A stretch of DNA of 64,000 bases, taken from assembly GCA_902606175.1 (NCBI GenBank), contig CACLEZ010000006.1, forward strand, positions 28,316 through 92,315, given 5' to 3'. Below the pieces are notes generated by a model. The model searched no databases, was not told the origin of the DNA, and worked only from the letters and a program-made list of their open reading frames with translations. The position numbers and the translations under genes are program-made. Of this stretch, positions 45,266 to 49,231 are shown piece by piece (position 1 is the stretch's first letter; every line of letters begins with the position of its first letter). Origin of the DNA: an uncultured SAR86 cluster bacterium. Lineage in GTDB: Bacteria > Pseudomonadota > Gammaproteobacteria > Magnimaribacterales > Magnimaribacteraceae.

Positions 45266-45294
45266 TTGACGAGACTTTAAAAACCAAATAATGT
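45266..45294 (+). promoter_or_regulatory. sigma70-like promoter upstream of secreted-paralog operon
   Basis: TTGACG - 17 bp - TAATGT, about 80 nt before the ATG at 45378. Confidence 0.55.
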
Positions 45295-45377: not shown

Positions 45378-46136
45378 ATGCAACTCAAATTAAGTGCAGC
45401 TATATCTGCTGCTTTATTATTTTCTTTTAATATTCATTCGGATGATCATATCCAGCCAACTTTTATCCCAGTTGAGAGTTTTGCTTGTAATTATGCTGAT
45501 GGCAAAGATATGGATGATTTATTAAAGGTTACCGAAGAATGGAATGAATATGCCGACGAGACTGGTTTTCAATACAGTGCTTGGATCTTTTCAGTAAATT
45601 TTTATAGCGATGAAGAAGCTGCTGATTTTTTCTGGGTCGGAGCTTCACCAACTTGGGAAGAGCTTGGTAAGGCGCAACAATTGATGAGAGAGCCTGAGGG
45701 AGTAAAAATTAATTCCAAGTTCGATAGAGTCACTCCTTGTATTGACCATGTAAATTGGGGTTATGAGAGTGTAAGACAATCAGAATCGGCTGACGGTGAT
45801 GATACAGGAGTATCAACTATTGTTTGGTGTACTCTTACTGAAGGGACAACTTATGATCAAGTCTTAGCTGCTGATAAAAAATATAACGACTACTCTGATT
45901 CTCAAGAAATGGCGGGAGGAGCTGGACGCTGGTGGCCTGGGTCTGGTCTGCCTTCTCGCTTCACTGCAGATTTCTTGTGGAGCCAATCTGCAGATAACCT
46001 CGTAGAATGGGGTAAAGCAGTTGACATGGCAGTAAACGGTGGCGGAAATCAAGCCATGCAATCAATATATGGAGATCTCATGACTTGTGATAACAGGGCT
46101 GTTTATGATGTTCTTCAGGTTAGATCAAATAATTAG
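45378..46136 (+). CDS. secreted four-cysteine paralog A (internal duplication)
   Basis: Signal peptide then SDDHI; cysteines FACNYADGKDMDD, VTPCID, VWCTLTEG, LMTCDN; motif AGGAGRWWPGSG. Confidence 0.88.
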   Translation: MQLKLSAAISAALLFSFNIHSDDHIQPTFIPVESFACNYADGKDMDDLLKVTEEWNEYADETGFQYSAWIFSVNFYSDEEAADFFWVGASPTWEELGKAQQLMREPEGVKINSKFDRVTPCIDHVNWGYESVRQSESADGDDTGVSTIVWCTLTEGTTYDQVLAADKKYNDYSDSQEMAGGAGRWWPGSGLPSRFTADFLWSQSADNLVEWGKAVDMAVNGGGNQAMQSIYGDLMTCDNRAVYDVLQVRSNN

Positions 46137-46144
46137 GAAAAAAA

Positions 46145-46903
46145 ATGAAAAAAATAATCTTAGTATTAACAATAATATTTACCTTTTCTTTCAATATTTT
46201 AAAAGCAGATGATCACATTCCTACTATTGGAGCAATGGAAATGTTCGCATGCAACTACAATAAATCAAAAGATATATCAGATAGTATGAAGGTGGTTGAG
46301 GAGTGGAACGAGTATATAGATTCAACTGAAGTCTCCTATTCTGCCTGGATTTTGGAACCTTACTATACAAATCCTGAAGAGCAATATGATAGTTATTGGA
46401 TAGGTTTTTCTCAGTCATTTGAGGAAATGGGTTTAGCTCAAGAAACTATGTTTACGGATGAGGGAATAAAGTTGGATGAAAAATTTGCGAAAGTTTCAAC
46501 TTGCGAAGCTCACAGTCTTTGGGGATTTCAATCTGTTAGAGAAAATAAAGACCCTTTTGGAGACGGATTTTTAGCAGCTTCGAGATGTAAGTTAATGGAT
46601 GGCGCTACGCCCCAGATGATAATGGCTGCGGATGTAAAATGGAATGAATTTATGGACTCATCTGGCATGTCAGGTGGAATATTTAGATGGTATGCAGGCC
46701 CTGGAGTTTCGAGTGAATTTTCAGACGATTACGATTTTGTAAATATTAATACAATTGATTCGCTTTCGGCGTTCGGAGCTGGAGCAGATATAAATGTAAA
46801 TGGCGGTGGAAACATGGTCGCTGCAAGTATTTATAGTGAATTGATGCAGTGTGAGGATATGAGAGTATACACAGCAAAGGTAGCAAGAGCACCTGGTAGT
46901 TAA
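46145..46903 (+). CDS. secreted four-cysteine paralog B
   Basis: Signal peptide, ADDHI; FACNYNKSKDISD, VSTCEA, SRCKLMDG, LMQCED; SGGIFRWYAGPG. Confidence 0.88.
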   Translation: MKKIILVLTIIFTFSFNILKADDHIPTIGAMEMFACNYNKSKDISDSMKVVEEWNEYIDSTEVSYSAWILEPYYTNPEEQYDSYWIGFSQSFEEMGLAQETMFTDEGIKLDEKFAKVSTCEAHSLWGFQSVRENKDPFGDGFLAASRCKLMDGATPQMIMAADVKWNEFMDSSGMSGGIFRWYAGPGVSSEFSDDYDFVNINTIDSLSAFGAGADINVNGGGNMVAASIYSELMQCEDMRVYTAKVARAPGS

Positions 46904-46929
46904 GTCTCAGTAAAAAATAAGGAAATATT

Positions 46930-47667
46930 ATGAAGAAATTACTTATAACTTTTTTGGCTCTTGGTGCTTGTATTGTTTCTGCGGGGCAAGTCTGGACACA
47001 ATTTGATTTTCAAGTTGACTCTCCAGAAGCCCAAGCAAAAATAATTGCTGCAAGCAATGAGCTGATGAGCACTAATTTTGCTAAAGAAAATTTAAAGGGT
47101 TCAGTGCATCTGGATGTATACATATCAAATGGAAGTAGTCCTGCAACTCATTCTTTTGCTGTTTTACAACCTAGTATGGCTGCACATCAAGAGTGGATGA
47201 TGGCGTTACAAAACAATCCAGAAGGTCAGAAATTCTTTCGTGCTCTTAATGAAAACTCTACTCCTGTTAATGAGAGAATTAACTCATTTATAGGCTCTTA
47301 TGGCACGGCTTCTAATAGCGATAATGTATGGCTTATTCATCAATTAAGCATAGATCCAGCTGATACACAGAGACTCATCAAGGCATTTGAGCAAGTTGAT
47401 AAGGATATTGAAGGCCAATTTCCCGGACAATTTGGACTGTCAGCAGTCGCATTTGGCCAGGATGATGTTACCCATCTTTTATCTGTAGGGTATGAATCAG
47501 TAGCTGAGATGGAATCATGGGAAGATCAAGTGGCTACTAATGAAGGAACACAAAAGTTTCTTAAAACTATGTCTAAATTTGCTGAATGGAAGGGCAATGA
47601 CCTACTTTTCAATGCCTTAATATTTGATGATGCTCAGACAAAAGAAGACTTTTTATTAAATAAATGA
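46930..47667 (+). CDS. secreted protein C, two alpha-beta-barrel-like modules, no mature cysteines
   Basis: Signal peptide MKKLLITFLALGACIVSAG; two similar halves (VWTQFDFQVD...; VWLIHQLSID...); between paralogs B and D. Confidence 0.8.
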   Translation: MKKLLITFLALGACIVSAGQVWTQFDFQVDSPEAQAKIIAASNELMSTNFAKENLKGSVHLDVYISNGSSPATHSFAVLQPSMAAHQEWMMALQNNPEGQKFFRALNENSTPVNERINSFIGSYGTASNSDNVWLIHQLSIDPADTQRLIKAFEQVDKDIEGQFPGQFGLSAVAFGQDDVTHLLSVGYESVAEMESWEDQVATNEGTQKFLKTMSKFAEWKGNDLLFNALIFDDAQTKEDFLLNK

Positions 47668-47675
47668 GGAAAATT

Positions 47676-48428
47676 ATGAGAATTAAAATATTACTGATTT
47701 CTATTTGTATTTCTTTTTTGAGCTTTACAAGTGCAGATGATCACATCGAGATAGGTGGAATGGCTGCATTACAATGTCAATATGCAGATGGCAAAGATAT
47801 GGATGATGTTATGAAGGTGCTTGATGAATGGAGTGAATATGGTGATGAAAATTTTTCTGAGCCTTTTAGTGCTTGGGTCATGACACCAGTTTATATGTCA
47901 AATGCTGATTTCGATCTAGATTTTGTATTTTTAGGGTTTGCAGAAACTCTTGCAAGTGTAGGGAAAGCAGAAGATGAATTTAGAGATGGTGGTCAAAAGA
48001 TTGGCGAAAAATGGGAACGAGTAACTGACTGTTCAGGAATGTCTCTTAATCTTAATGTAGAAGGAAGAGCCCCAAAAAATGAATGGGTTGAAGGTTCTAC
48101 AGGTTACACAATGATCCAGTCATGTTCTTTCAAAGAAGGTAAGTCTGTTTCTGACCTGGAATCAAATGATAAGGTCTGGAATAAATATTTAGATGACTCA
48201 GGATTTGAAGGTGGATATTGGAGATGGTGGCCTGAAACTGGATCTCCAACCGAATCAGATTATGACTATTTAGTGGCTGTAAGTTTTTCTAGCATTGAAG
48301 AATATGGAGCATCAAGAGATAACAGGCTTGTAGCTATGATGAATGATACAAGACCAGAGGAAGTTCACAACTGCAATACGCCAAGGCTTTACGAGTCAAC
48401 TAACGTAAGACTAAGATTAGCTGAATAA
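47676..48428 (+). CDS. secreted four-cysteine paralog D (start at second ATG, after GAGGA)
   Basis: Signal peptide, ADDHIEIGG; LQCQYADGKDMDDVMKVLDEWSEYGD, VTDCSG, QSCSFKEG, VHNCNT; EGGYWRWWPETG. Confidence 0.88.
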   Translation: MRIKILLISICISFLSFTSADDHIEIGGMAALQCQYADGKDMDDVMKVLDEWSEYGDENFSEPFSAWVMTPVYMSNADFDLDFVFLGFAETLASVGKAEDEFRDGGQKIGEKWERVTDCSGMSLNLNVEGRAPKNEWVEGSTGYTMIQSCSFKEGKSVSDLESNDKVWNKYLDDSGFEGGYWRWWPETGSPTESDYDYLVAVSFSSIEEYGASRDNRLVAMMNDTRPEEVHNCNTPRLYESTNVRLRLAE

Positions 48429-48444
48429 ATTAACAGGATAAATT

Positions 48445-49185
48445 ATGAGAAAATTTTTACTAATATTTGCCTTAAGCTCTCTGAGCTTTATAGGTTTTGC
48501 TGATGATCATGAATGGACAACTTACACAGGAGAAGTTCTGCAGTGTAATTTAAAGGACGGTAAGAGTGTTGAAGATGTAATGGACATGGTTAGGACCGAC
48601 TGGTATGAATTAGATTATCCCATTCCTTACGATGGCTGGGTTACTACTCCAACATTATTTGCCGATAATGATGGCGGATATGATTTATTCTGGGTCGGAT
48701 TTACAACAGATAATGCAGATATGGGTACTTCACTTGATTGGTTTTTTGAAAATGGAACTAAAGTATTCAGTAAATGGGAGAATCTAGTTGAATGCGCCTC
48801 TTGGAGTCATTGGGACATTTGGGAAGCAAGAGAACCTTCATCAAGTCTTGAAGAAGGAGATACAAATATCTGGGCTTTTCATAGCTGTAGTTTTAAGAAA
48901 AGAAAAGGTGCTTCTGACTTTAAAGATAATGATGAAGAATGGAATACATTTTTCGACAAAATTGGACATTCAGGAGGAGCTTGGAGATGGTGGGCTGCAG
49001 GCGGATCAGACACTTCAGCTACCAATGACTTTTATATAAATATCTCTTTCAGCAGCATGAACGAGTATGGAAAATATAGAGATGCTCGAAAACAAGCAAT
49101 GTCTGATGGTTCTTTACCAGAACAGATAACCGATTGTGAAGCTCCTAGAGTTTACACAGCTAATAATATAAAAGTAATGAATTAA
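48445..49185 (+). CDS. secreted four-cysteine paralog E
   Basis: Signal peptide, ADDHEW; LQCNLKDGKSVEDVMD, LVECAS, HSCSFKKRKG, ITDCEA; SGGAWRWWAAGG. Confidence 0.88.
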   Translation: MRKFLLIFALSSLSFIGFADDHEWTTYTGEVLQCNLKDGKSVEDVMDMVRTDWYELDYPIPYDGWVTTPTLFADNDGGYDLFWVGFTTDNADMGTSLDWFFENGTKVFSKWENLVECASWSHWDIWEAREPSSSLEEGDTNIWAFHSCSFKKRKGASDFKDNDEEWNTFFDKIGHSGGAWRWWAAGGSDTSATNDFYINISFSSMNEYGKYRDARKQAMSDGSLPEQITDCEAPRVYTANNIKVMN

Positions 49186-49204
49186 TATTTTTTTATCAAA
49201 TAAG

Positions 49205-49231
49205 ACGGTCACTTTAGTGGCCGTTTTTTTT
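49205..49231 (+). terminator. Rho-independent terminator closing the secreted-paralog operon
   Basis: ACGGTCAC-TTTA-GTGGCCGT followed by a T run (one G-U pair). Confidence 0.9.

Follow-up and report, generated by a model that had tools for sequence, protein, structure and literature searches.

Five consecutive open reading frames, A to E, were found on the + strand at positions 45378-49185 of the window (the whole 64,000-nucleotide stretch of SAR86 DNA that was analysed), and four of them (A, B, D and E) encode members of a single family of putatively exported proteins, hereafter the Cys type. The predicted fold of this family is the fused dimeric alpha/beta barrel. The superfold is already known; what is new is a lineage-restricted variant that appears to be exported and tied by disulfides. 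The explanation that we favour, with roughly even confidence, is that the array supplies an exported paralogue set of fused alpha/beta barrels for the binding or conversion of small molecules outside the cytoplasm.

Organisation of the array

The annotated features of the array and of the associated genes in related genomes are listed in Table 1. The array genes are separated by gaps of 3-29 nt or overlap, and because of this close spacing they are likely to be transcribed as a single transcript. The open reading frame of D, when opened at 47664, shares 4 bases with the end of C; the start of D is probably the second ATG at 47676, as a GAGG lies just upstream of it. The terminator placed at 49205 by the earlier note is present as a pattern, namely an 11-bp stem followed by a T-run. 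The promoter that it placed at 45266 was not recovered by a consensus scan, and promoter-like sites across the region were no more frequent than in shuffled sequences.

Table 1. Positions of the array genes, of short patterns within and beside them, and of associated genes in relatives (L, loci outside the window).
Feature	Position	Strand	Basis
A, Cys-type protein, predicted exported, 252 aa, two homologous halves	45378..46136	+	
S-D-D-H codons of A, likely cleavage site, mature start D-D-H	45438..45449	+	pattern search; predicted cleavage
B, Cys-type protein, predicted exported, 252 aa	46145..46903	+	
A-D-D-H codons of B	46205..46216	+	pattern search; predicted cleavage
C, second-family protein, predicted exported, 245 aa, no mature Cys	46930..47667	+	
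D, Cys-type protein, predicted exported	47676..48428 (ORF opens 47664)	+	
A-D-D-H codons of D	47733..47744	+	pattern search; predicted cleavage
E, Cys-type protein, predicted exported, 246 aa	48445..49185	+	
A-D-D-H codons of E	48499..48510	+	pattern search; predicted cleavage
Intrinsic-terminator-like hairpin with T-run, 3' of E	49202..49227	+	pattern
Hydrolase / FG-GAP-like genes in relatives	L039:10529-11524, L040:9015-11320, L041:9076-11432, L067:235-2594, L068:922-3269, L078:280-2627		
Third family 'QGLNVITITTDDP' members	L039:6697-7398, L040:6704-7417, L041:6781-7494, L042:967-1674, L078:4240-4953		

Homology and internal duplication of the Cys-type proteins

The four Cys-type proteins can be aligned end to end with 26-43% identity to A, and this full-length alignment confirms the homology that the earlier note had claimed for four secreted four-cysteine paralogs. 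They share four aligned mature cysteines (a fifth cysteine of D sits within its signal peptide), the DDH sequence and the GG-x2-RW[WY] motif in the second half. The [GTA]G ending formerly given to this motif does not hold since the residue preceding the glycine is S, P, T or G, and the corrected pattern is GG-x2-RW[WY]-x3-G. The view of a strongly diverged, old array is borne out by D of the window, whose orthologues in other SAR86 species are 61-92% identical to it, against just 31-37% for A, B and E of the window.

Each Cys-type protein appears, from profile comparison, to be an internal tandem duplication, a feature that had been overlooked. Profiles of the first and second halves match each other with an hhalign value of 97.9% (E=4e-13) when built from 24 sequences and 97.2% when built from four, and the spacing between cysteines 1 and 2 and between cysteines 3 and 4 is 83-88 residues, with the same domain around each pair. 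The count of four mature cysteines is therefore right, whereas the picture of a simple four-cysteine protein is not, as the pairs are split over two homologous halves. Elsewhere in the same genome there is a gene for a 127-aa, apparently exported protein that comprises a single half, and this protein matches half 1 at 99.4%. The simplest history would be that a single-domain ancestor was duplicated and then fused. A single-domain relative, apparently exported, was also observed, as a weak match, in a distant proteobacterium (L108:1399-1803, + strand); it resembles a 124-aa SAR86 protein (L006:966-1340), and this likeness suggests an older single-domain family outside SAR86.

Searches with single proteins and profiles against Pfam, NCBIfam and PDB sequences gave nothing above threshold, in agreement with the earlier statement that no known family was recognised; no strong match to any characterised family emerged when one was looked for. 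Pfam families of the fused dimeric alpha/beta-barrel fold gave sub-threshold profile matches only. The missing Pfam match lowers the case for membership of any named family and leaves the fold call as it is. A match to 7PVP was discarded as a repeat artefact of a designed protein. No match for D was found in viral contigs, and the literature yielded nothing on this family, on the structure 2PGC discussed below, or on SAR86 together with an alpha-beta barrel.

Predicted fold and cysteine pairs

Structure prediction gave a confident result for D and a weak one for C (described below). The AlphaFold2 model of D, computed with 24 sequences, has a pLDDT of 91.6 and a pTM of 0.86 and consists of two beta-alpha-beta-beta-alpha-beta units with the elements in the expected order. 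The residues conserved in the family (D62, R111, N149, R163, W164, D177 and Y219 in the numbering of this model) could be structural in role. A Foldseek search with the model found 109 PDB chains with E<=0.001, the top match being 2PGC (E=2.4e-7, TM 0.67/0.74), an uncharacterised marine metagenome protein (JCVI_PEP_1096685590403) that is classed in SCOP as a marine-metagenome dimeric alpha/beta-barrel family. This protein has the two-domain fused alpha/beta-barrel layout and the marine origin of the array proteins but is only 12-13% identical to them in sequence, and profiles of all types gave no sequence match to it up to E=10. A viral fold library returned a best TM of about 0.3, which is not meaningful.

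The next matches after 2PGC were chlorite dismutase, coproheme decarboxylase and DyP peroxidases (E about 1e-6 to 1e-5, TM about 0.5), which have the same fused two-domain layout. This ranking raises the reading that the Cys-type proteins are heme or tetrapyrrole proteins akin to those enzymes, which we regard as very improbable. The enzymes need a proximal histidine, whereas in 62 homologues of the Cys type the only histidine column above 25%, other than the N-terminal one, reaches 29%; with no conserved proximal histidine, membership of the heme enzymes was rejected. The Cys type moreover differs from that superfamily in its apparent export and its paired cysteines, and no sequence match between the two was found.

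In the model of D, the first half has C14 close to the end of strand 1 and C99 close to the start of strand 4, and C130 and C213 occupy the corresponding places in the second. All four cysteines are kept in 54 of the 62 non-redundant homologues, and six lack C1 and C2 jointly while retaining C3, although these six may reflect few independent loss events. The loss of the first pair together, with the second pair kept, makes two intra-domain disulfides (C1-C2 and C3-C4) likely, and this arrangement is favoured by the position of the pairs in the model, by their joint loss and by the presence of a gene for DsbB in the genome.

The mature N-terminus

The shared ADDH-like mature N-terminus described earlier was recovered by pattern search as a D-D-His start in A, B, D and E. 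A start with D-D-His, D-G-His or D-N-His corresponds to the ATCUN motif for Cu(II)/Ni(II), so that a copper/nickel site in the Cys-type proteins is possible. Of the 62 diverse homologues, 66% have a histidine aligned here, this residue is constant where position 2 varies between D, G and N, and the four array genes are the only ones in the genome with [AS]DDH at the N-terminus after a signal peptide. Histidine occurs at mature positions 1-5 in none of 109 other putative exported proteins; this background set came from the window together with 400 kb of a relative and was picked by a home-made signal-peptide rule under which membrane proteins pass as well. Outside the membrane, the proteins might accordingly serve as buffers, carriers or users of copper or nickel, the barrel being a scaffold or a partner site, and such a role may coexist with the small-molecule explanation. 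We nevertheless hold it to be unlikely as an account of the family, as the histidine is missing in about a third of the members (e.g., D-D-D, D-D-E and N-D-D starts), neither C nor the third family described below has it, the cleavage sites come from a crude predictor, and none of the neighbouring genes is metal-related.

Protein C and further exported families

C shares neither the cysteines, DDH nor GG-x2-RW[WY] with the other four proteins, and the description of it as unrelated-looking stands at the level of sequence. The description does not extend to architecture, as C is probably also a two-half protein of the same general layout as the Cys type: its halves align (hhalign, 86%, E=5e-6), and its model, weak as it is (pLDDT 62.6), again has 2PGC as best fold match, at low TM. 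C matches the profile of a C-like SAR86 family (A7) at 2e-26 to 3e-26, and at 3.3e-25. The Pfam entry DUF6854 (PF21614) gave a sub-threshold match to C (E=0.01) and to a relative of C from another SAR86 genome (21.9 bits against a cut-off of 27, E=2e-4), and no match to the Cys type.

A third exported family of about 237 aa ('QGLNVITITTDDP' type, 'QGLNVITI') occurs in the same arrays of relatives and has no Pfam match. No sequence link among the Cys, C and 'QGLNVITITTDDP' types was found by hhalign, and a single common origin of the three is not supported. More exported families of similar length were found in similar clusters of other SAR86 families.

Distribution, turnover and selection

The Cys family is nearly universal in SAR86 and nearly absent from the other Proteobacteria sampled. 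Profile searches, from which the copy numbers were also derived, found it in 166 of 199 genomes of the SAR86 order, with every one of the 22 genera represented, and in 35 of the 40 genomes that are at least 90% complete; outside the order there was one genome (G226) in the class sample and one weak single-domain match (G657) in the phylum sample. In a class sample, the profile of the C-like family matched only SAR86 genomes.

In addition to this survey of copy number, which had been proposed as a check together with operon context, ten arrays were compared. They contain 3-6 genes each, drawn from at least ten orthogroups whose relative order is conserved, the D and E types being the most constant. 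Orthologues of A occur in five other arrays (60-95% identical), those of B in two (51-54%) and those of E in eight. The flanks that were read in relatives consist of a MATE/acetyltransferase pair on one side and a desaturase-MsrB-MurJ block on the other (functions assigned by eye).

For the orthologues of A, D and E, dN/dS is about 0.03-0.07, with the synonymous sites of some pairs near saturation, and selection on the orthologues compared is strongly purifying. This bears on a further explanation, that the proteins are surface-exposed and variable recognition proteins (phage or grazer decoys, or adhesins) whose turnover is driven by arms-race selection. Close relatives do carry different paralogue subsets in the same slot, and the mature proteins are strongly acidic (pI 4.1-4.5), as this explanation would have it. 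We consider it improbable because the fast change of a recognition surface was not seen under such strong purifying selection, and no membrane or cell-wall anchor was found in the sequences of the array members.

Several associations with other genes were observed. A beta-lactamase-like serine hydrolase gene, an FG-GAP-repeat-like gene or both lie 3' of the array in relatives (Table 1) and are absent from the window. In another SAR86 family (L071:1-5900; L069, L070) Cys-type genes are interleaved with PDZ-like, cyclase-like, esterase-like and FAD monooxygenase-like genes, and two f2 arrays have esterase-like and FAD monooxygenase-like genes alongside (functions again by eye). The genome that contains the window also encodes a divergent member of the family whose signal resembles that of a lipoprotein (L007:1429-2241, + strand), with an ammonium transporter gene on one side and a glnK/PII-like gene on the other; a study of SAR86 ammonium transporters (PMC9277239) makes no mention of operons or hypothetical neighbours.

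Proposed function and significance

Under the favoured explanation, a beta-alpha-beta-beta-alpha-beta domain of about 100 residues would have been duplicated and fused into a one-chain pseudo-dimeric alpha/beta barrel in which one disulfide per half ties strand 1 to strand 4, with C representing a second family whose architecture is probably similar. The proteins would act beyond the cytoplasmic membrane, with the periplasm as the most likely compartment. Small-molecule binding is common among alpha/beta barrels of this kind, and small organic molecules may be bound or converted in the barrel or in an inter-domain pocket. The paralogues would differ in specificity, which would explain why different subsets of them are found at the same locus in different SAR86 species. 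The periplasmic or surface ligand-binding or enzyme role that the earlier note held possible agrees with this explanation, which we infer from the fold; no ligand, set of enzyme residues or genetic link to a transporter came to light. A broader proposal, which we rate as rather unlikely, is that SAR86 has a large exported superfamily of its own, made up of fused alpha/beta barrels that are tied by disulfides, have a copper/nickel site at the N-terminus and form a mix-and-match set of extracytoplasmic receptors or enzymes.

SAR86 is one of the abundant lineages of the surface ocean. Its genomes are very small (about 0.7-1.8 Mb among those sampled), yet most of those sampled keep these exported proteins, many with several genes in tandem. 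Such conservation in an abundant ocean lineage suggests that the proteins probably have an important role at the cell boundary.
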